A stretch of DNA of 36,086 nucleotides from Linderina pennispora. Lineage: Eukaryota; Kickxellomycota; Kickxellomycetes; Kickxellales; Kickxellaceae. The position numbers and the translations under genes are program-made. Of the stretch, positions 2,861 through 33,196 are shown one piece after another. Under the pieces are notes generated by a model. That model saw only the letters and a list, made by a program, of their open reading frames with translations, made no database searches and had not been told where the DNA came from. The stretch is taken from positions 1-36,086 of the forward strand of contig NW_024468342.1 in NCBI RefSeq assembly GCF_002104995.1. The letters are read 5' to 3'. The stretch's first letter is position 1, and the number at the start of each line of letters is the position of its first letter.

Positions 2861-3558
2861 TTGAGAAATTCAATAGGCAAGTAAGAAGAGAAATGATGCT
2901 GTTCAGTTTTGCCTTATTGCGTATGCATAGCATTAAGAACGTTTTATTAAAAATGATCTGGCTTGCATGGTTCTTGGGGCCCTTGGCGCTGATACAGTCT
3001 CTTGAATCAGTCTATACAGACTGGGTCCATTGTGGCCCAAATACTACTGCTTACGCATGTTCATAAGACAAATTAATTTATAAAATAAACCCACAAATAT
3101 TGCATAACCACCAGAAGAGCTATATGGTCTTATTCAATAGGTGCTCATAAATAAATATCATAAGTGCTGCACAGCTGGTGATGACCACCTTGATGATGCT
3201 ATGGAAGTTACCAGGCCGGCCGACAATGAGAGCAGCTCTTGCGCTGAACCAATGGAGATATATAGTGGAGACCTGTGACCACTACAATAACAACTTGTCG
3301 CCCTGGTTCCACTGATGAGGTCAGATGCCCCACAAGATCAAAAGGAGTTTACAGAGCAAGTCACCCAAATTTGTGTTGAGGCTTAAAAGAGCTTTCCTTT
3401 TTTTACTACTATACAAGAATTTATAGTCCAAAAGTGTCTGACCATCTACTAGAATCATTTTATTAGGTTAAATAAAAGAAATAAAGAGTTCTGTATATTG
3501 GATATGAGTATTACATAACCTATTCTTCAGCCTGGCCTGCTCTCATCTTTGGGTGTGT
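2861..3558. other. AT-rich stretch without genes
   Basis: No frame of useful length on either strand, and many in-frame stops. It contains A/T-rich runs such as those near 3060-3110 and 3400-3490. It probably belongs to the decayed element region. Confidence 0.5.
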
Positions 3559-3559
3559 C

Positions 3560-4011
3560 GGATGCAACCATTCCTGTTATTATTCATGTTTTATTTACCG
3601 GCTGGTCAAGGGGAAGCAGACCTACAGCAGCAAGCAGCGGCTACAGGCTGCTAGAGGGCCTGATATACAGGATACTCTGGGCCAGCTGGCCATAACTAGT
3701 CCATATGACAAAATTGCTGAGCAGTTTCAGGTGGAGAAAGCACGGGGTTGATGACAGCAAGTGGAACTTGTTATCGGAAGCGATCCATGTCAATATTATC
3801 CAGAGGCACCTAGTAGTGGGGTCAAAGCGTGCTGGCGATGCTGAGGAACGCTTGGGAGTCGAAACAAGGTGCCAGCTGGGCCGAGATGTGCCTTGACAAA
3901 CCAAAGGTGTGCATGGAAAAGGTACAAGAGTTTCTCAGCATTGAAAGCAAAAATGCCCAGCTGACAAAGTCGTGCCGGATGGTCGATAAAACGGCTGATA
4001 AGCATGCTTAG
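3560..4011 (+). pseudogene. Decayed coding fragments, family not assigned
   Basis: From about 3560 a plus-strand frame reads YRLVKGKQTYSSKQRLQAAR, then a block containing DIQDTLGQLAITSPYD, and stops near 3750. A second frame (from 3705) continues with VDDSKWNLLSEAIHVNIIQR and stops at 3896. A third begins at 3829 (MLAMLRNAWESK...). The pieces look like one protein broken by two frame changes: they abut in order and have a similar charged helical character. There is no intact start or recognisable catalytic motif. Position beside the 2043-2860 relic suggests another mobile-element remnant, though on the opposite strand. Confidence 0.35.
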
Positions 4012-5170
4012 AAACTTGTATATAGAGTACTGGAACATTGGAACTAAAAGTATGCATATAAAAGTATGAAAGTTGGATACCTTGAGCGTAGAAAAATTAA
4101 TGGAAATGCTAATAAGAAAAAAGGGAGCGTTGAGAGAGGTTTAGCGCGTTTAGGGAACCGACATGCTATGCCAAGGCTGACAAGCTCTATTTGCTAGGTT
4201 ATACTGCCAAACCGACCTACGTGCACCTGCTGGATACCGGACACCATTATCAGCTACCATTCAACAAAAAGTTAAATATTGCATCAGACAAACAAAATGC
4301 CTAGTACAATCGAGGATAGAAGATATTGACCGACTGCTCCTCAGACTCCAACGCTTCTCCCCTCAACTCTCCTTTGTCTTTGCTATTCCATGCCTATATC
4401 TAACTGTGGTCTGTAAATCGAGGTGGCTGGTGAAGAGGGAGCTAGTTTGAAGAATGGCCAGTTGTGGCTGAGATGGGATCGGGGCAATAATGAAACCAGC
4501 GCAGCAAAAGTCATATTAGCTGTTGTAATTTGCTGTGGTGAGCACTGATGAGTGGAGAGTTTGCATCCAACATCCTCATTCTGCACGTGGGGCTTACAAA
4601 AGCGTTTCCAGCCATGACGAGGCCATGTCACAGGTCACCTTTAAGACTGGCAAAACGCTACACGTGTCTCATACATAACAGTTCTGACGATCGGGTTGCA
4701 GAATCACAGAAAGTCCATGCAGGTATCGCACTGGCGTAGAAAACACCCAGCGAGTAAAAGCATGTTTTTGTAACCAGTACTAACATAAGATAGGGAGAGC
4801 GTCTGCAAATCTGCAAGCCTTAGCCGTAAGCACTGGTGCCCTTCACAATTTATACGGAACCCTCGCTGCCTGGAACAAATCTAAACTGAGCAATCGATGC
4901 ATGGACCTTCCCTATCAAAAAGCATCCGTACCAAATGTTTATGGCAAATAGTCCGTTTTGGAAAGTAGAGCATGGCTAATGGCTCTGACCACTTACAGGA
5001 GTATTGATGCTCAAAGACAGACAAAAAGTTTGGCTTAGATGTTACTATCCATAACAATCGTATTGCATTTGGATTTGTGAAGAATAAGCTGAAATTGTGA
5101 TACATGCTCAATAGCCTCTGTCTTTTATCTGTACTCTATTTGCTTAACCCCCGCACCACATCTATCTATC
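4012..5170. other. Intergenic region
   Basis: Only short, mutually overlapping frames occur, without motifs. The last 100 bases, which include a TTTTAT-containing stretch near 5120, are presumably the promoter and leader of the plus-strand gene at 5171. Confidence 0.45.
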
Positions 5171-5599
5171 ATGTCGAACAAAACAACTGAAGGCATATGC
5201 AGCAGCGTTGTTAAGCGGGCAATTGCATTGGAGCAAGAACAGCGGGATAGGTACTGGCGCACAAACGCAGACGTAGTACAGCTCGAGAGACAGTTACAGG
5301 AGTTTTCCAATTCGGCAAATGAGCACCTTAACCCGACGTTGGTGAACGAGAAAACAAATATAGAGCCCATGCCAGTGTTGAGGACAGCTCTGCCATGCGT
5401 AGACAGGGACGGCAGACGTGAGCTGCTGTGTGACCAGACATTAACTATCGTTACCCAGGATGGCTCTCGTTCCGACGCCGAACCAGTTCGTGTGGCGCAC
5501 GTGGTTCCAGAAGATACCGGGAATGATATGGCGCTCGAACTCGATATGACGTTTACACCACTGACGCAAATTGGCGCAACAACCCTGTACATGCAGTAG
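5171..5599 (+). CDS. Hypothetical 142-aa protein with predicted coiled coil
   Basis: An ATG-started frame ends at TAG after TTLYMQ. Residues about 20-50 (EQEQRDRYWRTNADVVQLER and following) form a charged helical stretch that could be a coiled coil. The remainder is mixed, acidic near the C-terminus, with no signal peptide or membrane helix. I do not recognise the family. The plus strand was preferred over the slightly longer opposite frame (5125-5592) because it has a plausible hydrophilic protein with balanced composition, while the reverse frame is Ser/Cys-rich as expected of a shadow. No operon-like neighbour; the nearest gene is the peptide precursor on the other strand, about 540 bp away. 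Confidence 0.5.
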   Translation: MSNKTTEGICSSVVKRAIALEQEQRDRYWRTNADVVQLERQLQEFSNSANEHLNPTLVNEKTNIEPMPVLRTALPCVDRDGRRELLCDQTLTIVTQDGSRSDAEPVRVAHVVPEDTGNDMALELDMTFTPLTQIGATTLYMQ

Positions 5600-6139
5600 A
5601 CGCCTGCTTATAAACACGCTTATTTATTGTTACCATGGTATCACGGAACATAGACCTCGTATAAACTGCGAGAAAGCCAGTGGCTGAGTATGAGAACGCA
5701 GACAGCTCACAATCCAGTTGACTGGGAGTTGGCACCTATCTCCGTAAGATGCTCCGGGCTTACATGACCCACGGTGTAGCATTACACTAGCAGTGTGAGG
5801 AAAAACGATCGTCGCCAATGACCAATAGTGATCGCCAAGGTCCTCATATATGCGCAATTGTACAAGCGGGCGCTTGTAAGAGCAACTTCGCACCTTTTAT
5901 GGCAATTGCACTTTTACATTCAAAAGCCGATTGATTCATTCGATAGATGAGGGCCGCAGCTTACAGCTCATATATATAGCTGCCGATATCCCCCTCCCAA
6001 AGCCTGCCAAGCTGTACATTTGGGGCACTATGCATTTTATTCCTTCCCTTTGCCTGTTTACGCTCATGTCCTATTTCACTTTTAAATATTATTTGTACGA
6101 AAGGAAAGAGGAGTCCCGGTTGTTAGAGACTGATTGCAT
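5600..6139. other. Intergenic region between convergent genes
   Basis: Lies between the 3' ends of the plus-strand 142-aa gene and the minus-strand peptide precursor. No supported coding frame, RNA or repeat is visible; it should hold both transcripts' 3' ends. Confidence 0.45.
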
Positions 6140-6514
6140 TTACTGGCTAAAGTAGTCCCAACCACGCTGCATAGCAGCCATGTTACGGACACCAGAATCA
6201 CGCTTGCGCTGAGCCCAGTAATCAAAGCCATAGGCTTGATGTGCAGCAGGTGCAGCCACATCAACAGTGGCGCCGCGTTTGCGCTGAGCCCAGTAATCCC
6301 ATCCGCGATGCATAGCAACTGCGTCATCAGCGGAAGCGTCGCGCTTACGCTGTGCCCAGAACTCCAGGCCATAAGCCTTTGGCGCAACCGATACGACAGC
6401 AGTAGGGACTCCAGAAGACGTGGTGGTGGCCCCTGCAGTAGGGAGGGATGCAACACACGGAGTAGTTGAGGCAAGAATAGCAGCAGTGGCGACGACGAAG
6501 TTGGTGAGGTTCAT
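6140..6514 (-). CDS. Secreted Kex2-processed repeat peptide precursor (pheromone-like)
   Basis: A 124-aa precursor. Residues 1-22 form a signal peptide (MNLTNFVVATAAILAS..., likely cut after Cys-Val-Ala). A Ser/Thr-rich spacer follows, then four repeated cores: AYGLEFWAQ (47-55), RGWDYWAQ (70-77), AYGFDYWAQ (94-102) and RGWDYFSQ (117-124). The first three are each followed directly by Arg-Lys-Arg (56-58, 78-80, 103-105); the last ends at the stop codon. Arg-Lys-Arg is a classic Kex2/furin cleavage signal. Spacers begin with Asp/Ala/Ser-rich residues that a Ste13-type dipeptidyl peptidase might trim. This is the layout of yeast alpha-factor and other fungal repeat peptides; the core matches no peptide I know. 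The internal ATG at 6514 is chosen because it starts a clean signal peptide; an in-frame extension to 6592 would bury it. A TATA element lies about 160 nt upstream. Alternatives are a non-mating signalling or antimicrobial peptide. Confidence 0.85.
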   Translation of the reverse strand: MNLTNFVVATAAILASTTPCVASLPTAGATTTSSGVPTAVVSVAPKAYGLEFWAQRKRDASADDAVAMHRGWDYWAQRKRGATVDVAAPAAHQAYGFDYWAQRKRDSGVRNMAAMQRGWDYFSQ

Positions 6515-6670
6515 GGCTGAAGGTATTTCCGGACTAGTAGTGCAGCTAAACTTGCAAGAGGGATAGATATCGGGAGCGAGATATTCTGACAAGGTGGACA
6601 GCAGAGAGGTAAGGGTAGAAGTAATTTTTGTTTGTTGGTGCCATCAGGACAGCTGCATCCTTGATCAAGC

Positions 6671-6680
6671 CCTTTATATC
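6671..6680 (-). promoter_or_regulatory. TATA element of the peptide precursor gene
   Basis: The reverse strand reads GATATAAAGG, about 160 nt upstream of the precursor's ATG. Spacing resembles TATA elements of other genes in the window. Confidence 0.5.
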
Positions 6681-7870
6681 TGTCATGGCTGGGGTGTTTT
6701 GCACGCGCTCCTTCAGTGACTTGGCCGTCGTGGATCTATAGCGGCTTGTTTTTCTCGCATGCCTGATGCTGACACCCTCAATAGCTGTTCTACACCTGCG
6801 CTCTCCTCTCTCTGGGCGGCCAGTGCTGTGATCCGTATGCCGCCTCACTAGTGGTTTTGCGGCCCAACATACAGCCAGCTGATGTCCTCCATGGGCTACC
6901 CTCGCTGGTGTCACGTTGATCTCGTAATAATTGCTCGCCGGACACTGGCTATGCCGTGTTCATGAATGGCTTTTTGACCAAAAAGACATGTATCAACGAG
7001 CGTTCAATGTTGTGCAATGATTATCGTGGGTGTATATCTAGGGAGTCGGTAAGTATACGAATGAGCCCGAAAACACCGACGATTGGTGTTCATTGGCAGG
7101 CAGCGGAGAGGATTGGCGCGCCTCTTTGCTTCCACACTGCTGTTCCGGGATGCACAGACACTGGCGCTATGAATTCATAATTGCGAGGTGAGTGATCCGC
7201 GCCTCATTTTCTCCTACCCGCCAGCCCCGCTTTTACGCTCGCACTTTCCACGGGCTTTGTATTGGTCAGACATCCACATTCTGGACGCCGATTGCCCATC
7301 AGTGATCAACTCGGAACACGCATTTTTGTCAGTACTCTTGCGGTATACACATGAAAATCGAAACGGAGGATTTGGCAGCCGTTTCGCAATACCGCAAGAA
7401 CCTGAGTCACCGGGGTCTGCTGGCAAACAATCCAGTCCCACTGTCCACAATTCTGGGTTGTTGGCACTTATTGGGGCCGTTCAAGGCATCGGCGTCATCA
7501 GTAGAGCGGATGGTATATTTGGCCACCAGGATGCCATTGACCACGGACGACGGCAAATAATTTTGTCGCATTCCAACTTCTTGGCCGCTTTACAGAGCGC
7601 TGGTCACCCAGGCATGCCCAATATCTTGATCATTGTTCCTGCATAGAGTGAAGGTGTAATGGGAGAATGCTCTCTGCATCATATCAAACACATAAGGACA
7701 GGGCTATACTTGTCTATATCCAGGCTGTCTTTTGAATAACATAATGTTTATTATGAACCACATGCACCTTGTTTATGCACGCAGTTTTAATCCCTGAATG
7801 TTTCTACAGCGGTCGCACATGCGGCGCCCAAAAGGCACACATCTTTGGATTCAGAACTTGTGGCAACGCT
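6681..7870. other. Intergenic region
   Basis: No supported gene. A 152-codon open stretch at 7188-7646 begins with GTG and has no usable ATG near its start. The remainder holds only short overlapping frames. It contains the distal promoter of the peptide precursor and the 3' flank of the 231-aa secreted protein. Confidence 0.4.
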
Positions 7871-8566
7871 TTACAAGTATTCATAGCGCTTGGGGACGAG
7901 GTATGACCGGCGTGCAAGTCGGCTAGCAACGGCCTGGTTATGAGCGTCAACAGCCGCATTGATCCCTGTCTGAAGGCCTGTATCGATAAGCTCGATGGTC
8001 AGGTCCGGACCAAGCTCCTTGCCCCATTTGGAGACCTTCCCGCCACGCTGGTTCGCGTGGCTATACAGAGACTCAGCCAGTGTGTATCTAAGATCACTGT
8101 CTTCATCGTCGGCCACATTACGCCTGGCGAAAGAGGACTGGCTCCTGTTGATCGCATTGTTTAGCAGCTTTCCGATAATTGCCTCGACAGCGTCCGGGGG
8201 CAAACTGATGATGTTGGGGATGGGCTTGAATGCCTTGCTAGGGTCATCCTCGCGCTGTTCGACAGCATCATCAACCCCATCGACGGATCCAACCGCCCTG
8301 GCTCCCTCAAAAAGCTCATCGATAGGGGAATCGGCGGAGTCGCCAGCTACAGGAGCATTAGAATCAGTGTCCGAGCCAGTGGGAGTTGGAGCTGCGTCAG
8401 TTGCCGTCGTCAGGGAAGGTGCGCTGTTGTCGGATGTGGCAGTAGGCGCAGCGCTAGTAACCTCAGGGGCCACCTCCACATCGCTGGGGTTAGATTCGAT
8501 GTCGATAGGTGCAGCGGCGGCCAGCGTCGCTAAGATGGTAAATGCAAGGGTAAAGGAAACGCGCAT
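7871..8566 (-). CDS. Secreted protein, 231 aa, Ser/Thr/Pro/Ala-rich N-terminal half, dibasic sites at C-terminus
   Basis: Starts with a clear signal peptide (MRVSFTLAFTILATLAAAAP, cut near residue 19). Residues about 20-85 are rich in Ser, Thr, Pro, Ala and Asp and probably O-glycosylated. The second half is a more ordered-looking helical region with few Gly and no Cys (around PNIISLPPDAVEAIIGKLL and the following segments). Arg-Arg and Lys-Arg pairs occur mid-protein (FARRN) and at the extreme end (LARR, then SYLVP, then KR, then YEYL), which could be Kex2 sites releasing short tail peptides. I do not recognise the family. It is the next minus-strand gene upstream of the repeat-peptide precursor, in a run of secretory-pathway genes. 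A TATA element lies about 140 nt upstream. Confidence 0.8.
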   Translation of the reverse strand: MRVSFTLAFTILATLAAAAPIDIESNPSDVEVAPEVTSAAPTATSDNSAPSLTTATDAAPTPTGSDTDSNAPVAGDSADSPIDELFEGARAVGSVDGVDDAVEQREDDPSKAFKPIPNIISLPPDAVEAIIGKLLNNAINRSQSSFARRNVADDEDSDLRYTLAESLYSHANQRGGKVSKWGKELGPDLTIELIDTGLQTGINAAVDAHNQAVASRLARRSYLVPKRYEYL

Positions 8567-8703
8567 GGTAGGTGAAGATAAGAGTTAGCAGAGTTCTTGT
8601 GCTTGTTGATGAGTGCTTGCCGTGGGTAAGTTGTACAGATGGGAATGCCTGGATGATGTTTTCGCAATGCTGCTTATGTTTAGGACGCACCAGTACTGTC
8701 TGG

Positions 8704-8711
8704 ATTTATAC
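8704..8711 (-). promoter_or_regulatory. TATA element of the 231-aa secreted protein gene
   Basis: The reverse strand reads GTATAAAT, about 140 nt upstream of the ATG at 8566. Confidence 0.5.
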
Positions 8712-9457
8712 CTGGCCATTGCCCTGTAGAGGTAAATGTCTACCATGCCACCCTCTCATTCAAAAGCAGCAGCTATCTCCAAGCTTGCGTTAGTTTTACT
8801 GGCACAGCTAAATTTCTCTGGAAAAGGAATGCTAATTTTAGATGCTGCGCATTGGCGCACACTTGCAAAGGATACTCTTTGAGGAGACCGCATGTCGATC
8901 CCTATTTTCAGATCATGTGCGATTGAGGATATCAGCGAGGAACACTTGGCCAGCACTACCGCCATAGAAACTATTACAAAGGATAGTGATGCTGGTTTCC
9001 TCAGTTCAGTCATACACATGCAGTCGATAAAGGCTGCACACATGTCAAAGAGTGTGCTGTTCTAAATTAATCGCAAACTCACTTCTCAAAAAGACCACTT
9101 TTCTTTCAGATACTGTCATTGTCGCTGCAAAAGGTAGCAGTTGATGGCACCACATCTTGGCACAGCATCTAAAAATATCACGGAGCAAGCGCTTCCAAGA
9201 AGAGCATCATCGACTTCTAGAAGCAGCGCTGGATGAGGAAACAGTTGGAGCATTGCAGTGTACAGCAACAAATCAGAAACAGGTCGTAGAGTGCAGCATT
9301 AGCCGTTCAAGAGATGATCTTTGTAGAGACAAGCCTTTCCAAGAGTGAGAGCAGATCATGTTTACAGTGAACTACCTAAAACAAGCTATCCTCTCCAAAC
9401 GCTGCTAAGCGAGAGAGAGCCTACATCTCCCTGCGGTATCTGGCAAACACATCCGCG
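8712..9457. other. Intergenic region
   Basis: Short frames on both strands without motifs. It separates the promoter of the 231-aa gene from the 3' end of the receptor gene. No RNA gene or repeat recognised. Confidence 0.4.
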
Positions 9458-10984
9458 TTACAGCATGACCATGACCTCCTCCTTGACCTCATCAAGAAGG
9501 ACAAGCGACAGGTCCTTGGACTCCAGGCGGGTGCGTACACGCTCAATAATAACTAGCGGCAGGTTCAGGGCCATGTACGACTCCTCGTTGACATACATGG
9601 AGAAAATCGTGACCAGACGGTCCATGACTGGAACCGGGAACTGCGTGGTCGAGTCGAAGCTAGCACGAGGGAACGCAGCACGCACAGCACCCAGGATGCT
9701 GATAGTGGGGCTGGACTGCACACACTTCTTGATCGGGGTCGGGGGACGATTGCTGTCGTCGCTGTAAAAGCTGGTCTTGTCGAGCGGGTAGTGGACGTTG
9801 TAGATGTCGATTTCCTGGTACTCGTGCATGCGGCGCAGAGCCAGGATGGTTTGGATCTTTAGCTCCTGGTACTCGTCGAGGAAGGCTGTGAATTCGGAGC
9901 AGAAGCACGTGGCAGTGAACTCGCGGAACTTGCAGTATTCGGGCGGCGAATTGAGCATGTCGACAAATTCGCGCCGCATGTCCTCGACCTCGCTAACCAC
10001 CATCTCAATTGGCAGTCGGCCGTGGCGCATGCGGATACGGATGACGTGGGCATTCTTCATGGCGCGCACCAGCGGCACCACGACAGCCGAGATATGCATC
10101 ATCACGGTCGCGACCCAGACAAAGAACAGACCCGACCAGCGCGTGTGCAGGTCGCCGAGTGCCAGCTCCCAGATCAGGAACATCACCAGCCCAATCAGGC
10201 CAGTCGCCTCGCAGACGATCAGATCCACCTTGATTCCATACGCATCGTGCATTTTCCACACACGTGTGAGCAGGATCGGGTTAAGGAACAGGAGGTAGAT
10301 TGCAATGATGACCATGACTGGGACCATGCCCCAGTACATTGGGCAGTCGGTGCTCATGGGCTTCAGCGAGTAGTCCTTGTTGGTGAGGTTGATTGTCAAC
10401 GTAAGCACAATTGCAGCCAGCATCACCGCGCCGATGAAGATGGCCAGGGCCTTGTTTGACACAAACCTGTGCAGCTTCATGTACCGATGCATTCTCTTGT
10501 AGACTGAATTCTGCAGCGGCGGCAGTGCTTTCATTTCGTGTACGTCCAGGTCGCCTAGAAGCGGTTTCTCCGAGCTGATGCTATCGGCGGATGTGCGGTC
10601 GACCGAAGTGGAGCGGCGCAGCTGCCCGTAGAGCATGTGCGTCCTGGACACCACAATGAACTGCACAACGCGCGCAAACAGTGCGGTCATGCACAGGATG
10701 AAGCCAAGGTTAACCATCCACAGTCTGATAAAGCAGGGGACCTCTTTTAACGCAGTGTGGGCCAGCGCAATGGTGCCAACCATGAACGCGCCGGCGGCCT
10801 GCAGCGTGACTAGCACGATCGAGCGCCTTGACAGATCGATGTTTTTTCTTGCCGATTGTATCAGGAACAGTGCCATTGTGACGAGAACAAACACACCGTA
10901 GATCACGCAAATAGCGGTAACAGCGCCAACGCGAATTTTGTAGCTGGAACCACCAGCCTCCCAGGCAGGATTATCGGAAGCCAT
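9458..10984 (-). CDS. Seven-transmembrane receptor with C-terminal RGS-like domain
   Basis: A 508-aa membrane protein. Hydrophobic segments lie at about 19-42, 55-76, 88-112, 179-200, 217-240, 256-277 and 285-306, giving seven helices with a very short N-terminus. A charged loop of about 65 residues sits between helices 3 and 4 and contains a Ser-rich patch. After helix 7 comes a cytosolic region of about 200 residues. Its FREFTATCFCSEFTAFLDEY (353-372) and YVNEESYMALNLP (464-476) segments match the start and end of an RGS fold (regulator of G-protein signalling, a GTPase-activating domain for G-alpha), with a Ser/Pro-rich insertion between them. Such 7TM-RGS fusions are known in fungi and plants. 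Ligand unknown. The start is the ATG giving MASDNPAW; an in-frame TTG five codons upstream was not used. The gene is intact and intronless. It lies among genes for secreted proteins. Confidence 0.85.
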   Translation of the reverse strand: MASDNPAWEAGGSSYKIRVGAVTAICVIYGVFVLVTMALFLIQSARKNIDLSRRSIVLVTLQAAGAFMVGTIALAHTALKEVPCFIRLWMVNLGFILCMTALFARVVQFIVVSRTHMLYGQLRRSTSVDRTSADSISSEKPLLGDLDVHEMKALPPLQNSVYKRMHRYMKLHRFVSNKALAIFIGAVMLAAIVLTLTINLTNKDYSLKPMSTDCPMYWGMVPVMVIIAIYLLFLNPILLTRVWKMHDAYGIKVDLIVCEATGLIGLVMFLIWELALGDLHTRWSGLFFVWVATVMMHISAVVVPLVRAMKNAHVIRIRMRHGRLPIEMVVSEVEDMRREFVDMLNSPPEYCKFREFTATCFCSEFTAFLDEYQELKIQTILALRRMHEYQEIDIYNVHYPLDKTSFYSDDSNRPPTPIKKCVQSSPTISILGAVRAAFPRASFDSTTQFPVPVMDRLVTIFSMYVNEESYMALNLPLVIIERVRTRLESKDLSLVLLDEVKEEVMVML

Positions 10985-11643
10985 CTCTGGAATATGCAAT
11001 GAGATAATGCGACTGTTGTGTATGTATGATGAGAATAGTGTAGCAAATGCAAAAAAAGAAAGAAGTGTAGTTGATGCCGATGAAAATGCAAGTGGGATGA
11101 AAGTGGTTTTGCGAAATGGAGAGGCAGCTGAGAGAGGTTGAGGAGCATGGTGGAGATTATAAAGGCAACGGTATTGAAGCGAATGGGCTTGGCAAGTCCT
11201 GATGGGCAGGGCTGAGGAGATCTGGGCAATTACAATAGTGAAGGGGCTGATATGCGGTGAAAGGTGCGCGCAGTGGGCTTGGCTCTTTGGGATATCTGCG
11301 CATACAAGGCATATAACGCAAAACGGTCATTAGATGGGAGGTCTGCAAAAGGCGATCCTAGCCTCTTTGTAGGATTCTATTTTCTAGCTGGGCAATCCAT
11401 TGTGGATCGCGTTTCCAAGAGCCAGGATACCGCTTGGCAGTGAGAGAGCAAACGCCGGCCGCCATCAGCCAGCCCAACTTTTTCTCCTCGCTACTTTAGG
11501 AGACTCTCCTCGATATCACAGCGTTGGTGCAAAAATAGAAACGAGGAATTTATTTTTGTCGGGAGGACTTCTAGAAATGAACTTGGAGATAACACGGGTG
11601 AATGGACAGGCTTGGGGTGGATCCTGGGGTTTCTTTCTTTTGC
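10985..11643. other. Promoter region of the receptor gene and 3' flank of the 102-aa gene
   Basis: No supported coding frame. The minus strand is pyrimidine-rich directly upstream of the receptor ATG (about 11040-11160). No clear TATA element was found on the minus strand. Confidence 0.4.
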
Positions 11644-11952
11644 TTACTGGACCAGGTGCAGGAGGACCGAGTACACCCAGTTGGCGCTCTGCTGGGTCGG
11701 GGTCTTGTTCTTGAAATAGGCCTTGAGCTGATCCTTCATGTTTTCGGCAGTCTGTGCCACGTCTATGTCGTTGTCGGTCTTGCCAAGATGCTCGAAGAAG
11801 GTGTTGATGTTGGAGACCAGCGCCTCGTTGTTTGCGCTGCCCTTGATCAGCGGCAGGAAGGCCTTGGCCGCCTCGACATCGCGGCGCTGGAACCTGTGCG
11901 GGGCGGCAGTAGCAGCGGCAGCGATGGCAACAAGGACAAGGGTAAGACGCAT
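11644..11952 (-). CDS. Small secreted protein, 102 aa (tandem paralogue 1)
   Basis: Begins with a signal peptide (MRLTLVLVAIAAAATAAP) followed by an Arg-Arg pair (HRFQRRD) that could be a Kex2 propeptide site. The mature part of about 75 residues is predicted helical, without Cys. It shares the elements SNINTFF..LG and DQL.AY.K.K.P.QQ.A.W..SVL with the 103-aa gene 670 bp upstream on the same strand, so the two are tandem duplicates. I know no function for the family. The size, signal peptide and lack of Cys fit an abundant secreted or cell-surface protein, but that is only a guess. Confidence 0.8.
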   Translation of the reverse strand: MRLTLVLVAIAAAATAAPHRFQRRDVEAAKAFLPLIKGSANNEALVSNINTFFEHLGKTDNDIDVAQTAENMKDQLKAYFKNKTPTQQSANWVYSVLLHLVQ

Positions 11953-12617
11953 TTTGCACTAAGTGAGCTTTTGGATTGGAAGAGTTCAGAAAGGAAGAAG
12001 CAGGCTGTTGTGTAGGAGATTTCAAGACGGGGGAGGAGCATGCGTTACAGAGATTCAAAACTGATTTTGGTAGTCAGGACCGACAGCAGCCTTCATATAG
12101 GTCAGCAGGCTGGCAGAGCAAAAAAATTGGTTAGCCAGGCGCAGAGTAGGGCGAAAGAAATGCGTAGGAACGAAATTGACCGAAATTACGTACGGATCGG
12201 TAGCGCGGGTGGATAATAAATTCCGAAACAGTAGTGAGAGACATGCGGAGAAGGTATTGCTGCTCGGCATGACCATGTTTTTTCTTTCAGTGCTGTGCAA
12301 TCAGAGTTATAAAACGGGACCATGTTGGTCAAAGCTAACTCCCCCGAGCTGCGGAGTTACTCCGTTAGGTCCATTCGCATACATGAGGAGCATGATTTAG
12401 ACAGGAACAGTCCCACACTGCATTCGGCAGCAGACATACATGTGGGGGCGAGCACAAGGAAGGCTGCTGTAAACTATAGTTCCGATAGGTCCGGAAAAGG
12501 GGTCCTGTTCTCCCAAGAAAAGGGGTTTAGGGACACAATTAGTTATCAACAGATATAATTGAAAATCGATTATCAGGAAGTACCAAGCTACGGAAAGCAG
12601 AATTAAGCCAAGGGTAT
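11953..12617. other. Spacer between tandem secreted-protein genes
   Basis: Holds the promoter of the 102-aa gene and the 3' end of the 103-aa gene. No credible coding frame. Much of it is A/T-rich compared with the adjoining coding regions. Confidence 0.45.
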
Positions 12618-12929
12618 TTAGGTGAGCAGGGGCGCCAGAACCGACTCGGCCCAGGTGGCAGCCTGCTGGGCCGGGGCCTTGCTCTTGACATAGGCCTGGA
12701 GCTGGTCCTGGATTTTCTTAGCAGTGTCAGCAATTCTTTGCGACTTGTCGGGGTCATCGGAGCCGCCCAGGTTGGCAAAGAAGGTGTTGATGTTGGACTC
12801 CAAGGTTCCGTAATCCTTGGAACCGATAACCATCGGGAGCACAGCCTCGGCACTCTTGTCGTCACGGACAGTGAGCGGGGCGGCAAGAGCCAGGGCAGCA
12901 AGGGCAGTAAGAGCGAGTGCAAAACGCAT
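12618..12929 (-). CDS. Small secreted protein, 103 aa (tandem paralogue 2)
   Basis: Signal peptide MRFALALTALAALALAAP, then a mature region of about 85 residues, highly charged, helical and Cys-free. It is a paralogue of the 102-aa gene downstream: the central SNINTFFANLGG and the C-terminal half containing DQLQAYVKSKAPAQQAATW align closely, whereas signal peptides and loops have diverged. Unlike its partner it lacks the Arg-Arg pair after the signal peptide (TVRDD instead), so processing may differ. A strong TATA element lies about 80 nt upstream. Function unknown. Confidence 0.82.
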   Translation of the reverse strand: MRFALALTALAALALAAPLTVRDDKSAEAVLPMVIGSKDYGTLESNINTFFANLGGSDDPDKSQRIADTAKKIQDQLQAYVKSKAPAQQAATWAESVLAPLLT

Positions 12930-13006
12930 ATTATTAGTGTATGTGAAAGGAAGAAAAAGCTAACTGTCTGGACAAAGACAGGGGTGTCCTGGGTGGTGCT
13001 GGGTTC

Positions 13007-13014
13007 TTATATAT
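13007..13014 (-). promoter_or_regulatory. TATA element of the 103-aa secreted protein gene
   Basis: The reverse strand reads ATATATAA, about 80 nt upstream of the ATG at 12929. Confidence 0.6.
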
Positions 13015-13721
13015 GGTGGGCGTGGCTGGGCTAAATTCCCAGAGCCGCTCCTATTGCGGGCTTGGTTTCTTTTTCTTCAGCCAAGATGTTGCTTGGCCAC
13101 TTGTATGGGCAAAAGGGGGGCAGCTGAAGGAATAAAGAATGTGGTGTCAAGATACAACAATATCTGGAATGGTGTTTGAATACCGGTAGAGTGCGCAATT
13201 CGCATGTACGAGCGCCCTACATTCGGCATTTCGTGCAAGCTGTTCCCAGCAGCGGTATGCAGGCTGCATGGTTGGAAAAAAGCAAATACAAGCCTGAATG
13301 GGGCATCTGTATATTGACAATGCATCACGGGCAACCATGAGCGGGCCCACATTAGGCAATTTGAGGCACGGGCATGTAGTTTGTATTTTTCCCACTGGAG
13401 GTACGCCCTTTGTACGTGCGCCGGTGGAGGGAAGGCCGGGCCACATTCATGGAAGGCACAACAAAGAAAGGGATTGTTGCTCAGACGCAACAGCGGGTAA
13501 GGAGGCTTGGGAGTACAGCACTGCAGCCCCGCGGGAAGCCATCCTGGGCTTTGGCATTCTGACAGGGGGATTTTGGTAAATATCGCAGACGCGAGAAGCA
13601 ATGCAGAAAAATACGAATGCCCGTGGTGCAGCAAGATTAGAAACCCCCACCCATGGCCATAGGGAAATACATCCAAAAGATATAGAAACGGCATTCTGAG
13701 ATAATAAAAGAGCGGACTGGT
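13015..13721. other. Intergenic region, 3' flank of the beta-galactosidase gene
   Basis: A 205-codon minus-strand open stretch (13077-13694) runs through it, but it is Pro/Leu/Cys/His-rich, has no domain motif and lies in the likely 3' UTR of the beta-galactosidase gene, so I do not call it. No repeat or RNA seen. Confidence 0.45.
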
Positions 13722-16127
13722 TTACTGGTCGGCAATGGGCTGGTATCCGCGACGCCTGACAGCCAGACTGTACACCCTGCACAGGGCCCAGGAAGCAGCC
13801 AGCAGGGCGGCAAGCCAAGTGGCATAGTAGGCCAGGCCATGGGCGTCCTCGGGGGCCTCGGGGGCGTGGCGCTCAGGCGACTCGGAGACTCTACGCACAA
13901 TAGCGATTTTCTCCGGGTCACCAGACACCTCCTCCAGCACATACAGCACGCTCTTGTCCATGTCGAGGTAGCCGGGCGGCAGGTGGTAGTACTGCTGCGA
14001 GATCTCGCCGCACTTTTGGCGGCACACGTTGTCGGGCCAGAACCAGCCGCCGTAGTCGCACACCTGGCATGGGCGGTGGTCGCGCTTTTCGGGCGCCCGG
14101 CGCGTCCAGTAGCGGCCCAGGTGGTGCGAGTTGACCCACACATGGCCCTTGGTCATCGACCCCAGGTCAATGGCATAGCGCGACGGCTCGTAGGCACGCA
14201 GCGCTGCCGTGTCGATTTCAATGGCATACCAGCGCAGGCGGCTGCCCGCCGTTGGCTGGGCCGAGTAGGGGTGCCAGAGCACGTGGTCAGGCACCGGCGG
14301 GTCCTCCTTCACGCCCTCCAGCGTCGGCTGCATGGCCCAGCCGTTGCGCGTGACGTCGATGCCGCATACCGAGACTGCGCCGAGCAGGCCGCGCGTATAC
14401 GCCTCCATGTTGTACTGGTTGTGGGCCATGCCCATGGTCTGCGAGAGCAGGGTCAGGGGGGCGGAGTCGGGGGCGGCGCTGAGCACGTGCGCAGGAATGT
14501 CGATGGTGAAGGTGGCCAGGGTGTCGTGGCGGCCATGCGCCATGCCCACATATGAGTCGCCGATGTAAGCGTAGACAAGGTCTCCGGCGTCCTTGAGCAC
14601 AATCTGCGCGTCCTTGCCCTTGCGGCACTGCTTGGGGATGGTAATCTCTGTGCGGTACCACAGGTAGTCGGAGGTGTCGTGGGTCAGCTCGATCTGCTCC
14701 AGCGGCGTCTCGCTGTGGTATGCCATTTTGTTGGGCAGCGCAACACTGCGCACATGCATTTCGTCGAGCCGCAGGAGCGACGCGGGCAGCGGCTCGAAGC
14801 CGGCTGGATGGCGCTGGCTGCGACGCACGCGTTTGGAGAGCCGGGCGGTATTGTAGAGGACCACGGGCTCGCTGCCCTTGTCCTTGCGGACCAGGGTCAC
14901 GGACCAGCGGTGCAAGTCGTAGGGCTGGCCGCGGAACACTGCCGAGACGCTTTCCTGGGCGTTGGCGTTGACCAGGAAGGCCACGTATTCGTCGTCGTCA
15001 CCGTAGACGTGGGCATTGGCGTTCTTTCCTAGGCGCTCGGGCACCGGCACATTGCTGGCAGTCAGGATGTGCTCGGCATCGATCAGGTGGTTGTGGAGGT
15101 CGGCCAGATGCAGGTACTTGGGCCAGTTCTCCAGCCCGTACTCGTCGATGAACCCGTCGTAGTTGTAGGATGTCATGATGAACGGGCCTGAGGTGCGGCC
15201 AAAGTTGGTGCCGCCCTGATACATGTAGTAGGCGACGTATGTGCCGCCGTACGCATACCACTTGGCCACCGCATATGCGATGTCCTCGATAGGCCGGTGC
15301 GGCGCGGCCTCGCCCCAGCGCTGGAACCACCCGGGCCACATCTCCGTCCACATGTCGGGCATGTCCGGGTGCTTGCGGTGGAAGTCGGCCAGGTACTGGT
15401 CGCAGTAAAAGTCGTTCTGTGTTGGAATAACATGGTCGACATCCGAGTACTGCCTGCACATGATCCATGGCACCGTCAGGTTGAAGCTACCGGCGACCTC
15501 CCCGCACCACCTTGCGTACTTGTGCCCGTCCTCGCCCATCCGCCACTCCTTATCGCCGTACTCGTTCTCGATCTGCATGGCAATGAGCGGCCCGCCGTGC
15601 TCGGGCAAGAACCCCCTGGTGACCTCGACCGTCTTTTGAACAAACCTTTTCATTTCGCGCAAAAACGGCTCGTTCCAGGTCCGGAACACAATGTCCTTCT
15701 CGTGCCTCAGCCAGTGCGGGAACCCGCCGTAATTCCACTCGGCGCAGACATACGGCCCGATGCGCAGGACCACGAACAGCCCGTGGCGCTTGGCCGTCTC
15801 GAGAAACAGCGGGAGGTTGGCCCGGTCCGTTGCAAAGTCATACTGGCCCTTGGTGCGCTCGTGCATGTTCCAGAACACATATGTGTCGATGGTGTTGATG
15901 CCGCCCCTTTTGGCCTTTTGCATTAGGCTGTCCCACATTGCCGGCGTGCTGCGCGGGTAGTGGATTGTTGCTGCAGTCAGGATGCGCGGCCGCCCGTCGA
16001 TTAGCATGCCACGCGCCGAGTATCCGACCGTGTACGGGTCGCCCGGCACCACGCGCTCAATGCGCGCGTATCCGCAATGCCCCAGCACCAGCAGTAGCAG
16101 CAGGTGGGTGAGAGCTACGAGCTTCAT
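13722..16127 (-). CDS. Glycoside hydrolase family 35 beta-galactosidase, plant-like, with C-terminal membrane anchor
   Basis: An intact 801-aa protein. Signal peptide at 1-21. The GH35 TIM-barrel covers about 35-350: IHYPRSTPAMW (55-65), GPYVCAEWNYGGFPHWL (124-140), the acid/base Glu189 in QIENEYG, and the nucleophile Glu262 in TEMWPGWF, followed by YYMYQGGTNFGRTSG. The C-terminal half has beta-sandwich-like repeats. A Cys-rich segment near 690-720 (CDYGGWFWPDNVCRQKCGE, then SQQYYHLPPGYL) closely resembles the corresponding part of plant beta-galactosidases. A hydrophobic helix near 765-785 followed by basic residues would anchor the enzyme in a membrane with the catalytic part outside or in the lumen. 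It should hydrolyse terminal beta-galactosyl residues from glycans or plant cell-wall polymers. There is no SUEL-type lectin domain. GC-rich, no introns or frame breaks. Confidence 0.93.
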   Translation of the reverse strand: MKLVALTHLLLLLVLGHCGYARIERVVPGDPYTVGYSARGMLIDGRPRILTAATIHYPRSTPAMWDSLMQKAKRGGINTIDTYVFWNMHERTKGQYDFATDRANLPLFLETAKRHGLFVVLRIGPYVCAEWNYGGFPHWLRHEKDIVFRTWNEPFLREMKRFVQKTVEVTRGFLPEHGGPLIAMQIENEYGDKEWRMGEDGHKYARWCGEVAGSFNLTVPWIMCRQYSDVDHVIPTQNDFYCDQYLADFHRKHPDMPDMWTEMWPGWFQRWGEAAPHRPIEDIAYAVAKWYAYGGTYVAYYMYQGGTNFGRTSGPFIMTSYNYDGFIDEYGLENWPKYLHLADLHNHLIDAEHILTASNVPVPERLGKNANAHVYGDDDEYVAFLVNANAQESVSAVFRGQPYDLHRWSVTLVRKDKGSEPVVLYNTARLSKRVRRSQRHPAGFEPLPASLLRLDEMHVRSVALPNKMAYHSETPLEQIELTHDTSDYLWYRTEITIPKQCRKGKDAQIVLKDAGDLVYAYIGDSYVGMAHGRHDTLATFTIDIPAHVLSAAPDSAPLTLLSQTMGMAHNQYNMEAYTRGLLGAVSVCGIDVTRNGWAMQPTLEGVKEDPPVPDHVLWHPYSAQPTAGSRLRWYAIEIDTAALRAYEPSRYAIDLGSMTKGHVWVNSHHLGRYWTRRAPEKRDHRPCQVCDYGGWFWPDNVCRQKCGEISQQYYHLPPGYLDMDKSVLYVLEEVSGDPEKIAIVRRVSESPERHAPEAPEDAHGLAYYATWLAALLAASWALCRVYSLAVRRRGYQPIADQ

Positions 16128-16515
16128 AATGGAGTAAGGTCTTTGGGGAGTCTGAATACAATAAAATAATACCTGCTTGTTGGAATATACTGTCTGCGCT
16201 TTTACTGAGAATAAAGCAGGACGAAAAAAATACCAAAGAGCAGCACAGGAGCTCCCCTGAGCCTCGCTTTAAAAGGTCTCCCCTTGGTGCGTGCTCAGTC
16301 CCACCCCCTCTCCCATCTGGGCCACCTGACCAGACATGCTCCCTTTCTGGCCGGGAAAGCCGGGATTAGAGGAGGGGCTGCGACCAATATTCGAAGGTCA
16401 CGCTGTGCAGGCCATATGGCCAGCGCATAAATTTGAACGGGTGATGTAATCACGTTTTCTTCTTGTTCTTGGACTGAAATCCTCTGCTGCCACCAGAACC
16501 GTCCTCTGCCGATCG

Positions 16516-16534
16516 AAAAAAAAAAAAAAAAAAA
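16516..16534. repeat. Homopolymer run of 19 A
   Basis: Nineteen consecutive A on the plus strand, intergenic. It is too far from any coding end to judge whether it marks a retroposed 3' end; it could simply be a slippage-prone simple repeat. Confidence 0.9.
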
Positions 16535-16809
16535 GAAGGTCCGCCCAAGCTTATTTCCCCTCCCCAGGTTCTGATTCACAGGATCCAAAAAGGACGTGGC
16601 GAGTTCCACGGGCCACAGTGGAGCAAGCGACCTGAGATTGACCGCGCTTCGTTGTACCAGCCATGTTGACGTGTTTGGGGGAGGATGCAGCCCACTGGTT
16701 CCATGGACACAATGAACCGCGTAAAAAATTCGCATTATTTGTGCCTCCTTTCGATATCTCTTGAAAACACACCGGGCTGGGTTTGCAATGTAGAATTTAT
16801 CGAATAGAG

Positions 16810-17035
16810 GCTAAGAGGGAGAGAAAGAGAAGAAAAGAAAAGAAAAGAAAGAGGAAAAGGGGGAATGGAGCCCCCCTTACGTACATGCCCAGAGGTTTCC
16901 CATGTCCAGATGACAAAACAACACGCAGCTCTGCTCCAGAGAAGGGGGAGGAAGTGAAGACGGTGAGGGGAGAGAGAGAGAGGACAAAAGACAGCTTATG
17001 AAGAAAAATAACAAAGTTGAGAAGGAAGGGGGGGA
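16810..17035. repeat. Purine-rich tract with GAAAA microsatellite
   Basis: Long G/A-rich plus strand (C/T-rich minus strand) immediately 3' of cdc42, including successive GAAAA units near 16829-16853 and GAGAGAGAG near 16970-16982. Likely simple repeat; could form a triplex-prone region. Confidence 0.7.
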
Positions 17036-17058
17036 ACGGTGGTACATCTTTGCCCCCT

Positions 17059-17630
17059 TCAGAGCACCAGACACTTTGACTTCTTCTTCGTCACAGGCGG
17101 CTCCAACGCTGCCACAATGGCCTCGTCAAAGACGTTCTTCAGACCCTTCTGCGTCAGCGCCGAGCACTCGACATACTTGACGGCGCCCAGATCGCGCGCC
17201 AGACGCTCTCCAGCTCCACCGAAATCGGGCGCTGCCGGTTCCCCTCCAGCTTCGCCAGCGTCGCCCGGTCCTCGCGCAGATCCACCTGGTGCCCACGATC
17301 AGACAGGGCACGCCCGGGCAGTGGTGGCGCACCTCCGGGAACCACTTTTCCCGCACGTTCTCGTATGACGCCTGCGACGTCACCGAGAAGCACACCAGGA
17401 ACACGTCGTCTGCGGATAGGACAGCGGCCGCAGCGGTCGTAGTCCTCCTGCCCCGCCGTGTCGAATAGCCCCAAGGTGTACGGCTCATCGCCAATCATTA
17501 CCGTCACCGCGTAATTGTCAAACACCGTCGGCACGTACTCGGACGGAAACTTGTTGGTCGTGTATGAGATTAGCAGGCATGTCTTGCCCACCGCGCCATC
17601 GCCCACCACCACGCATTTAATCGTCTGCAT
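17059..17630 (-). CDS. CDC42: Rho-family GTPase Cdc42, reading frame interrupted by single-base gaps
   Basis: Membrane-bound molecular switch for cell polarity and actin organisation. Starts [17 protein letters not shown] (P-loop at 10-17), then switch [12 protein letters not shown], switch [32 protein letters not shown], and near the C-terminus the guanine-specificity region of family type, a basic patch and the prenylation box CLVL. As given, the frame is lost four times: after DYDR, before DVFLVCF, at GT-QVDLRED, and at VEL-ERLARDL. Each break is explained by one missing base, at CGC-TGC, ACG-ACG, ACC-AGG and CTG-GAG. Adding four to the 572-nt span gives 576 nt, i.e. the family's usual 191 residues. 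Cdc42 is essential in most fungi, so assembly errors are far likelier than a pseudogene. Cdc42 is favoured over Rac by the [11 protein letters not shown] and [13 protein letters not shown] segments. Confidence 0.93.
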
Positions 17631-27131: not shown

Positions 27132-28155
27132 AGTTCACAATAATAGTCACCAAAAACTGAGGAAAGGAATACAGATGTTGACATTCGGGCAACCCCATGC
27201 CCTTCGCCACCATGTGTAAATCCAAGTCCCCACCTGTATAAACATTGTGGGCCGGAACGGCCCCATCCTCCCCTTTTCTCCTCAGCAATTTCTAGTCATA
27301 TTCATTCCATAAAGCTCACAACTACTGGACTCTCTGAAGGTTAACAACAGAGACTGACAAGAGGGTATTTAAGCAAACGCCGAGCGCGGATACGGAGCCC
27401 TTAGCTAAGTCACGCACAGTCCTGGATAAAAATGCACCATTCTCAGCGAGTACACTACCTTGGGTACGACGGAACAATCCTAGCGGCATGACATATATAC
27501 GATTCGATGTCGAGCAAGTATGATTCAGGTGCCCTGAACGCACATGGAGTGCGGTGCGATGCACAGCTGCAGAATCTGCCGAGGCAGGTGCCTATGCAGC
27601 ACATAGGTGGTGGCTCCCGCTTTATATATAGTTTGCGAGAGAAGTGCCATCAGTCGCCGTTTAGCCAGTCATCGTGGGAGTCAAGGCGGCCAGTAGAATC
27701 AAGGTGTTCGAGTGTGGCAGCGGCCCACTTGTGATGAGGCCATCATACGGGTCACCACCACAGCTCGGATCCATGGAGTCGTCTAGCCCAAGGTCAGCTT
27801 ATGTATCTTTCTCCCTAAGCAGACCGCAAATTAGCTATGGGCCAGTGCCACATTCCAGTATGGGCCACCAGCATGGAACGGCGTCGCAGCACCATCCAGC
27901 GATATCATGCAGCGATCAGTGCCGCTGCCACCACTGCTATTGGTGCAATGGCTGCTGCGGAGGGTAGCTACAGGACATTTGGCGAGAAAGGCATTCCTAG
28001 GAATATTTCAGTAGCTGCTACATTTGAAACAGCAATTCGGCTCGGCTCGGCGCAGGAACCGGAATCAGCTCTCATGGATTTGTGGGCTGACGTTTTCTGC
28101 TCCAGATATCTTTTTGCTCTCCATTTGAATTCAAACTTTGTTCATTACTAAGCAA
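27132..28155. other. Divergent intergenic region with possible degenerate coding
   Basis: Lies between the minus-strand 202-aa gene and plus-strand Tim21 gene. Plus-strand frames 27507-27734, 27674-27967 and 27837-28151 succeed each other with overlaps and might be one broken gene (MSSKYDSGALNAHG..., then SPRSAYVSFSLSRPQISYG, then RFGEKGIPRN-type text), but I recognise no family and cannot support a model. Confidence 0.3.
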
Positions 28156-30311: not shown

Positions 30312-33196
30312 ATGATGCTTAAGGCCGTTCTCAGTGTTTTCGCAGTGGCTATTGTCGCCGCTGCCAACGAGTCGCCCGAACATGGTGACGTCAATGTCAA
30401 TGTGCGGATTGCCGGCATGCCCGCAGCTGTGCGGCAGTCTAGCGGTCTGCCCCTGTTCAACATCCTGCCGCGCTTCTCCACGCCCAGCGTCTCTGCCCGG
30501 GCGCGCGTCGATTCCGCTTCTGAGGCCGCAACTGAGGCACCTGCTTCCACTGAGGCACCTGCTACCAACACACCTGCTGCCAATACTCCTGCTGCCGTGG
30601 TTCCCGAGACTATGTCGGCGGCGTCGGTGACTGATCCCGCCATGATTGCTCTGTCTGAGATGGCCGAGAATGCCAAGAACTCTGTCGACCTGGCTTCGCG
30701 CATCATTGCCAACGGCATTACCGCCAACCACCAGCCAGCGGAGAGCGTGATTCAGGCCAGGATTGGCCAGCTCCAGCCCGCTGCTGAACCCGCTGTGCCC
30801 GCCACCTCTGCCACTGTCGCATCGTCGACTGCTGCCCCCGAGACATCGGCCACTGCTGCTGCTACATCGCAGACTGCTGCGTCCGACACAGCGGTCCCCG
30901 TATCGTCGGCGCCTGTCCAGAGCCTTCAGGTCTCGCCCAGCCCGATCCTGGCCGAGTCTGCCACTGGAACCCCGCATGCAGCCAACCGTATTGACACGAT
31001 TGCGTCGTCGTCTAATGCCTCCGATCTATCGGCTTCGGCCACAGCTGTCTCGTCCACGGCTGCTGCTGAGTCCTCTTCAGCTTCTCTGGCAGGCACCTCC
31101 GTCTCGGCTGCCCGTGCGGAGTCCGCTTCGGCAGAGTCATCTGCCACTGCTGCTGCTGAGTCGGCGTCCGAGACCGTTGCTTCGACCTCGGCTTGTCCCT
31201 GCCGCGATCCTCATCAGGATCTATGGCCCGTGCTGACTCTGTATCTGCCGACTCGTCATCGGCCAGCCTTACGCACTGCTGCCTCGTCTGTGGAGGCCGA
31301 CTCTTCGTCGGGAGCAGCAGCGGCTACCTCAGGCACCGCTGCCCGCGCTGATACTGTCTCTGCTGACTCGTCGATCGGCCACTGTTGCCTCGTCGGGCGA
31401 GTGTCCTCGTCTCGGCTGAGTCATCCTCTGTCTTGGCTGAGTCATCCTCTGTCTCGGCTGCCACTATCTCAGGTCCGGCTGCTCGTGCTGATCCTGTTTC
31501 CGCAGACTCGTCCTCTGCCTCAGTTGCCTCGTCGGTGTCCGCCGCCTCTTCGTCAGTCTCGGCTGCTTCCACCTCGGGTGCTGCCTGTGCGTGCTGATAC
31601 TGACTCAGTTGAGAGCTCTGTGTCGCCGGCTACTTTGGTCAGGTCCAGCTTCGGTATTTCCAGCTCGGCTGCTCCTGTGTCGTCGTCTGCCTCTTGCAGA
31701 CAGCACTGCGGCTCCTGCCGTGACTTCGGTTGTTGCCGAGTCGAACTCGGCTGCTCCTGGCCGTAGCCTTCAGTTGTTGCCGAGTTCGACCTCAGTGCTG
31801 CTCCGGCCGTCGACCTCGGTTGTTGCCGAGTCGAGCTCGGCTGCTCCTGCCGTGACTTCGGGTTGTTGCTCGAGGTCGAGATCGCGTGATGCTCCCCGTC
31901 GCCTCGGTTGTTGCTGAGTCGAGCTCGGCTGCTCCGGCGTCAACCTCGGTTGCTGCTCCGGCGTCGACTTCAGTTGTTGCCGAATCGACTTCGGCTGCTG
32001 TTCCAGCATCGACCTCTGTTGCTGTTCCAGCATCGACCTCTGTTGCTGCTCCAGCGTCGACCTCTGTTGCTGCTCCGGCTTCTACCTCTGTTGCCGCTCC
32101 GATGTCGACTTCGGCTGCTGCCCCGGATTCTACCTTGGCTGCTGCCCCTGCATCGACCTCGATTGCCGCCCCCGCATCGACCTCAGTTGCTGCTCCGGCC
32201 ACTACTTCGGCTGTTGCTCCTGCTTCAAGCTCGGCCTCGATGATGACTGCTAAGCCCGGAACTCAGATTGCCGAGAACATTGCGGCCACCTCGGTGTCGA
32301 TTGCGCCGGGTCATCGATCTCGGTCGCTTCGACGATGGTCAGCATTGTGTCTGTGCGTGCGATCACTCTCCTGCCTGATTCTAACATTGCGGGGATCTCC
32401 GATCTCTCGATGTCGGTTAACATGGGTATCCAGCAGGCTACTGCTGCCACAACCGGCACCGCTGTCACCGCTGCCACCGCTGTCACTGCTGCTGCTTCCA
32501 CCTCTGCCTCCGCTGCCACCGCCACTGCTGCCCGTTTCTTCCGTCAGCCCTGCTGATGTTGCCCCGATCACCAACATTGTGCCGGCCACCATCGTGATCG
32601 CGCCTGTTGCTGCTGCTGCCGCGCCGCCGCCGCTGTCACCCAGTCACCACTGTCACTGTTGCCACCTCTTCTATCTTGGCTGCTACCTCGTCTGCGTCTC
32701 CTGCCAGCCAGTCTGGTGCTGACAACGCCGACAGTACCCCTGCTGCCCAGCCCGAGACGACCGAGGTCCAGCAGGTCGATGACTCTGGCATGGCTCCCGC
32801 TCCCGAGGCCGCCAGCGACGGCGAGCAGCAGCAGCAGCAGCAGCAGGAGCCATCCAATGAGCAGTCCCAGCACGACGGCCCAGCCAACAACCAGCGCCGT
32901 AACGACCGCCGCGGTCGCCGTCGTCAGGACCGCAACCGCAGCAACGACCGCGCTGGCCGCTCGGGTCCTACTGAGCAGATGCGCGTTGCTGTCGTCGACA
33001 ACCAGTTCCAGCCGCTCATGATGACCGAGGCGCTGGCTGCCCGCTCGAGTACCACGGCTCGTCGGCGTGCCTCGAGGATAGCGCCAAGAACCAGTACCGG
33101 AGTGCGTGTGGGCAAGGTGATCCGTGTCACATGCCCCTCGGCGCTACCTGCCAAGCCACCCCGGGCGTCGCCAGGGCCACTACGTGCGAGGCATAA
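30312..33196 (+). CDS. Large Ser/Ala/Thr-rich mucin-like secreted protein, frame broken repeatedly
   Basis: Signal peptide MMLKAVLSVFAVAIVAAA, then a short ordered region (NVNVRIAGMPAAVRQSSG, NILPRFSTPSVSARARV) and a helical segment around DPAMIALSEMAENAKNSVDL to ESVIQARIGQL. Beyond residue about 150 the chain is nearly all Ala, Ser, Thr, Val and Pro: units of AARAD.VSADSS (about 31230-31590) and an 8-residue unit TSVAAPAS (24 bp; about 31880-32220). A Gln run and an Arg/Asn-rich segment (32820-32960) follow. Read one base over at the end, the tail contains CPLEYHGSSACLEDSAKNQ and further Cys, finishing ATTCEA and TAA. The frame shifts several times (near 31195, 31370, 31590, 31700, 32300, 32530, 33040), so boundaries inside are approximate. 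Probably heavily O-glycosylated cell-surface or extracellular protein. Could be two genes. Confidence 0.7.
31880..32230 (+). repeat. 24-bp tandem repeat coding for TSVAAPAS
   Basis: Roughly a dozen imperfect 24-bp units of the type GTTGCTGCTCCAGCATCGAC plus CTCT, within the mucin-like gene. Slippage here could change repeat number between strains. Confidence 0.8.
32824..32847 (+). repeat. CAG microsatellite (Gln run)
   Basis: Seven to eight consecutive CAG codons within the mucin-like gene, giving a poly-Gln stretch after SDGE. Confidence 0.8.

Follow-up and report, generated by a model that had tools for sequence, protein, structure and literature searches.

Linderina is a soil fungus of an early-diverging lineage, and the closest described counterparts of the gene reported here are repeat precursors cut by Kex2. 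The P-factor gene of S. pombe encodes a repeat precursor of this type, dikaritin RiPP precursors (ustiloxin type) carry Kex2-cut repeats with aromatic cores, and Rep1 of Ustilago has Kex2-cut repeats with a repellent-like structural role. Kex2-processed repeat proteins (KEPs) are secreted-type proteins with at least three similar cores between dibasic sites (Le Marquer 2019; Umemura 2020). The criterion described for them in PMC6339444 is at least three near-identical motifs interspaced by KR, RR or KK sites, and PMC7329392 reports 185 KEPs from 16 strains of Zoopagomycota. In two yeasts, repeat precursors are known to vary within the species: unit number and peptide type differ in MFalpha1 of S. 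cerevisiae, with 2 to 6 repeats (PMC5850478), and the P-factor gene has 4 to 8 repeats, with six predicted peptides in 150 strains (PMC6342294).

The window, that is, the whole stretch of 36,086 nucleotides that was analysed, corresponds to contig C217 in an assembly of Linderina pennispora that comprises 26.17 Mb in 222 contigs. An earlier note, made from the letters alone, had described an open reading frame at 6140..6514 with 124 aa and four cores. Translation bore this out, and the strand, which the note left unstated, is minus: the precursor is a single open frame from 6514 to 6140, read as a predicted single exon, with a copy on the other haplotype (contig C112), a paralogue and a second Linderina record. 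About 23 hydrophobic residues are followed by a pro-region and then by four cores; RKR stands directly after each of the first three cores and the stop directly after the fourth. A putative signal peptide spans residues ~1–23 (6446..6514, minus strand), as judged from hydropathy (11-residue Kyte-Doolittle mean up to 1.97 at the N-terminus) and from a hydrophobic stretch at the equal place in the paralogue. The cores, all on the minus strand, read GLEFWAQ (residue 49; 6350..6370), GWDYWAQ (residue 71; 6284..6304, also found by the core-pattern search), GFDYWAQ (residue 96; 6209..6229) and GWDYFSQ (residue 118; 6143..6163). The RKR sites, of Kex2 type, occupy 6341..6349, 6275..6283 and 6200..6208 on the same strand. 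The repeats had been called near-identical; this is correct for the cores, the only parts that are alike, and incorrect for the spacers, which are long and differ. Over residues 25–124 the repeat score was 101 with RKR and 77 without it, against a shuffle maximum of 56 in each case, and none of 2000 residue shuffles reached either value. A cruder statistic on the whole protein counted the 7-mers with 4/7 residues equal to one reference; here 24 of 1000 shuffles reached the precursor's value.

A TATA-like ATATAAA about 160 nt 5' of the ATG (6673..6679) and an AATAAA about 100 nt past the stop (6036..6041) were read directly on the minus strand; their spacing is plausible, and they may serve this gene. 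The paralogue also has TATATAAAAG upstream, comparable to the TATA-like motif of the window. A sigma-70 promoter scan gave no promoter, and that type of scan does not apply to a fungus.

Set beside the motif criterion of PMC6339444, the precursor has four cores and three RKR sites, and its tested features would place it in the KEP class as the term is used in PMC6339444 and PMC7329392. The organism also has the protease that goes with this class, a Kex2-like gene with one P-domain match above the cut-off (E 2.3e-26) and a hydrophobic C-terminal segment. Its exons contain what we take, by eye, to be the subtilase catalytic blocks. The Kex2-processed repeat architecture proposed earlier, including RKR directly after three of the four cores, is supported by cores, sites and protease, and the early-diverging fungus that was suspected is Linderina pennispora (Kickxellales, Kickxellomycetes). 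To call the precursor undescribed was too strong in the strict sense, since NCBI already lists the C112 copy (DL89DRAFT_265205) and the paralogue (DL89DRAFT_313008) as hypothetical proteins and the KEP class has been reported from Zoopagomycota (PMC7329392). What is unfamiliar is the core sequence; this class of fungal peptide precursor was already known.

We think it very likely that the window gene encodes a processed precursor. The precursor would enter the secretory pathway, a Kex2-like protease would cleave after each RKR, and a carboxypeptidase would trim the basic residues, giving peptides that end in [WF]-[AS]-Q. Besides the first piece, which would bear the pro-region, the trimmed Kex2 products would have 19, 22 and 19 residues. 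By family match, S10 carboxypeptidase genes (30 exon-level genome matches) are Kex1 candidates, and DPPIV genes (DPPIV_N, one full genome match and two fragments) are Ste13 candidates. A second, monobasic cut at the Arg before GWDY-type cores may then yield a heptapeptide, GWDYWAQ or GWDYFSQ. All 11 listed G[WR]DY cores, from four non-independent proteins, have an Arg directly in front of them, which hints that cleavage at single Arg residues might set the bounds of the heptapeptide; the basic residue or end after each listed core in these proteins is demanded by the listing pattern.

The Linderina precursor shares with described KEPs the secreted-type layout and the cores between dibasic sites. 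It differs from them in its core, G-[LFW]-[DE]-[FY]-[WF]-[AS]-Q, which our searches detected in Linderina alone, and in its long, unlike spacers. As in MFalpha1 and the P-factor gene, unit number and type vary within the species; unlike these two, it has no Pfam match and an irregular Ste13 signature. Units after Kex2 sites start DASA, GATV and DSGV in the window (XA at 2/3) and DASA, DSGV and DSSA in C112 (XA at 1/3). The KEPs of Rhizophagus irregularis also come from an early-diverging fungus and give Tyr-rich peptides, but they mostly carry yeast-like STE13 signatures (PMC6339444). Because these two alpha-pheromone features failed, namely a Pfam match to the MF_alpha family at E 0.1 and the Ste13 signature, we did not file the precursor with the ascomycete alpha-type pheromones, though it may work like one. 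The pheromone role raised in the earlier note is plausible but found no direct support here: no Pfam family matched at E 0.1, the Ste13-type dipeptides were irregular, and genome profile searches for Ste2 (PF02116, 0 matches) and Ste3 (no match) were empty, with the prokaryotic control silent in both. STE2 has been called an Ascomycota novelty (PMC9202105). A PDB sequence search with the precursor gave two matches, both at chance level.

We compared the window with C112 938,000–967,999 and found that window 3135–17414 aligns to it at 96.1% identity over 14,392 columns, which identifies the window as the second haplotype of that region. By ORF comparison, contig C185 also nearly duplicates a part of C1, so the assembly contains both haplotypes in places. 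In a protein database search, the C112 copy of the precursor (DL89DRAFT_265205) was 73% identical to the window precursor over the whole query. Its cores are GLEFWAQ, GWDYWAQ, GWDYWSH and GWDYFGQ, and RKR follows each of them but the last. The two haplotypes differ by an exchange of units: C112 is without one 25-codon unit (75 nt) of the window, the one that holds GFDYWAQ, and the window is without one 22-codon unit (66 nt) of C112. Traced from position 210 of the C112 copy onwards, the 18-mer offset between C112 and the window is -1 at first, jumps to +74 within the second core and drops to +8 within the core that follows; at this 66-nt switch, GWDYFSQ of the window matches two successive C112 cores in turn. 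Both length changes are multiples of 3 and both switches lie inside core sequence; recombination between core repeats would give such whole-unit exchange and preserve the frame. Together, the two precursors hold five kinds of unit.

The earlier note had named repeats that differ in frame between relatives as a point against its reading, and on this the outcome was divided: the window frame is open, whereas the C112 copy has GGG where the window has GG, and the extra G breaks its frame upstream of the cores. The NCBI model of the C112 precursor seems, from its length, to leave out 19 nt at this place. The best argument that the window frame is right is the register of the paralogue, which matches the window precursor without gaps over 56 residues (22 identical) spanning the place of the extra G. 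In the GH35 beta-galactosidase gene (13722–16127, minus strand), C112 has four one-base insertions, and the window frame aligns with the beta-galactosidase of known structure 3w5f through residues 32–747; single-base errors in C112 are therefore likely. Among 32 one-base gaps outside the KEP repeats in the large aligned block, 24 were extra in C112 and 8 extra in the window. One of the window's own extra bases relative to C112, at 9458, ends the ORF of a receptor-like gene 12 residues early; as C112 reads on there like two relatives, an error of assembly in the window is the probable cause. Taken together, one-base errors seem to be present in both contigs, and the break in the C112 frame could still be genuine.

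The diverged paralogue, DL89DRAFT_313008, encodes 158 aa at C157:2843–3316. On its C144 haplotype, one extra T shifts the frame ahead of the last RKR. A second Linderina pennispora record, EC988_003169, which its locus tag suggests is from another strain, differs from it at 20 of 158 residues. Both proteins keep GLDNQAQ, GWDYFSQ, G[RW]DYFSL and GWDYWAQ, and have only one KR site. Between the two records, 1 of 35 core residues and 13 of 99 other mature residues differ, which is not significant (p = 0.11); when only the three GWDY-type cores are taken as core, the counts are 1/21 and 13/113 (p = 0.70). Homologues with conserved cores, whose absence the earlier note had held against its own idea, are thus present in the paralogue and the second record, and only in Linderina as far as searched.

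At the limited sensitivity of the protein search (1 match among 113 candidates, then at least 3 matches among 8000 scored), no precursor homologue was found outside Linderina. This search depends on 5-residue words in common and would overlook cores that have diverged. A search with the neighbouring receptor gave at least 3 proteins, one of them from Dipsacomyces, which we take to be another Kickxellales genus; Kickxellales genomes beyond Linderina are therefore in the database, at least partly. Within the genome, the exact DNA pattern for YWAQRKR matched 3 times and that for the GWDY core 9 times, all within the two known loci. With up to 2 mismatches, the former gave 30 matches against 15 for its reversed control and the latter at least 111 against 47, about twice the control for both. 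The matches on C1 and C185 were considered as further precursors and rejected, as they belong to one 386-aa ORF of another kind, presumably methyltransferase-like. The word Linderina is absent from the main texts of PMC6339444 and PMC7329392, and in the open-licence literature we found nothing on Linderina or Coemansia with Kex2, nor on mating pheromone receptors of Kickxellomycotina.

About 3 kb upstream of the precursor lies a 7TM-RGS receptor-like gene (9458..10984, minus strand; 508-aa ORF) whose Pfam matches to 7tm_3 and RGS are weak and fall below the cut-off; a 231-aa ORF without a Pfam match lies between the two (7871–8566). The C112 copy of the receptor-like gene has 520 aa and is labelled RGS domain-containing. 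Between the haplotypes it shows 22 synonymous and 2 nonsynonymous codon changes, which points to strong constraint. The 7TM-RGS family has at least about 10 loci in the genome, grouped by eye from 28 exon-level matches, and five of them lie on C112 927,983–1,027,147, within 100 kb around the precursor. Neither C157 nor C144, the contigs of the paralogous precursor, is among the matches to this family. A structure model of the receptor reached a mean pLDDT of 45.7 from three sequences, too poor to use, and a PDB sequence search with the gene gave no match. A receptor-like gene next to the precursor is a lead to a possible pairing, not a demonstration of it; the clustering is suggestive but was noticed after the fact.

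Other features of the region were also recorded. The segment C112:948165–953645, about 5.5 kb, is absent from the window haplotype at about 3135–3140, and ~0.46 kb of it recurs on C144 at 98.7% identity. At 27174–27346, the window has a solo LTR-like element (TGTTGACATT...GGTTAACA) with ACAGA on both sides. Two copies of this element on C144 flank an ORF that looks integrase-like by eye. This LTR, on C144 at 4632–4804, ends ~0.4 kb from the stop of the paralogous precursor, where the C157 haplotype has other sequence. Between 18.9 and 36 kb, Pfam matches to an MFS transporter, DUF6593, TIM21 and a cytochrome P450 mark ordinary housekeeping or metabolic neighbours. On the plus strand, window 30312–32722 has a strong AT skew (-0.465 over 31001–32000), and it holds a 484-aa ORF that matches no Pfam family and one of 277 aa whose Cornifin match is below the cut-off.

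We infer secretion, processing, peptide ends and function, and consider it likely that the gene encodes a KEP giving released peptides, most likely an intraspecific secreted signal. For the peptides as such, an intraspecific signal is our leading guess, a tentative one; they would most likely be used for mate, self or developmental signalling within the species. It is also possible, if somewhat unlikely, that the peptides are directed at other organisms, be they competitors or neighbours of another kind, and not at the fungus itself. Six KEP knockouts in C. cinerea had no apparent axenic phenotype, and their authors favour biotic interaction (PMC9769878); the genus-restricted detection and the turnover of units in Linderina fit such a target as well. 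However, the cores stay alike between the paralogue and the records, and they contain no basic residue, which would be unlike typical cationic antimicrobials.

The processed-precursor reading gains from C112, which keeps four cores and three RKR sites despite the whole-unit changes, and from GWDYFSQ and GWDYWAQ being kept in the paralogue and the second record; we counted against it the detection in Linderina only, the non-significant core conservation between the two records of the paralogue, the extra G in C112, the extra T in C144 and the single KR site of the paralogue. The last three, the KR site being the only one in both DL89DRAFT_313008 and EC988_003169, also speak for a relic, a once working precursor in decay whose frame is broken in one haplotype per locus and whose Kex2 sites have eroded in the paralogue. 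We hold this to be improbable: the window copy has an unbroken frame and retains every site, its frame keeps the gap-free register with the paralogue, and the GH35 insertions make single-base errors in C112 likely, an argument weakened by the window's own base at 9458 and its share of the one-base gaps. Rep1 counts for a repellent-like protein of structural or cell-surface type, in which the repeats would have a physical role instead of a signalling one. The precursor has just four short cores among its 124 aa, and its spacers differ, so we hold this to be very improbable here. Least probable of all would be a dikaritin-type RiPP, with Tyr- and Trp-rich cores cyclised after Kex2 cutting. Aromatic cores in a KEP would suit it, and a DUF3328 (UstYa) gene lies near 22% of KEP genes (PMC7329392). 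In contrast to the dikaritin case, Pfam scans over all 36 kb of the window in six frames (E 0.01, unspliced, so that single exons can be missed) gave no UstYa family, nor was there a match genome-wide, where the prokaryotic control was silent too.

Collectively, our results suggest that the window gene is a genuine KEP that probably works, and its core was unseen outside Linderina in the searches run. The precursor offers a defined peptide to synthesise and test in an early-diverging fungus, with the allelic variants and the paralogue as natural controls. We also put forward, as a speculation with little chance of being right, that GWDYWAQ-type heptapeptides, made by Kex2 and a monobasic cut, are a kickxellomycete pheromone sensed by the adjacent 7TM-RGS receptor or a clustered paralogue of it, and that haplotypes diversify the peptides by exchanging units. 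If true, this would amount to a peptide system for mating or self-recognition that lies outside Dikarya and uses a receptor of an unrelated, RGS-fused type.
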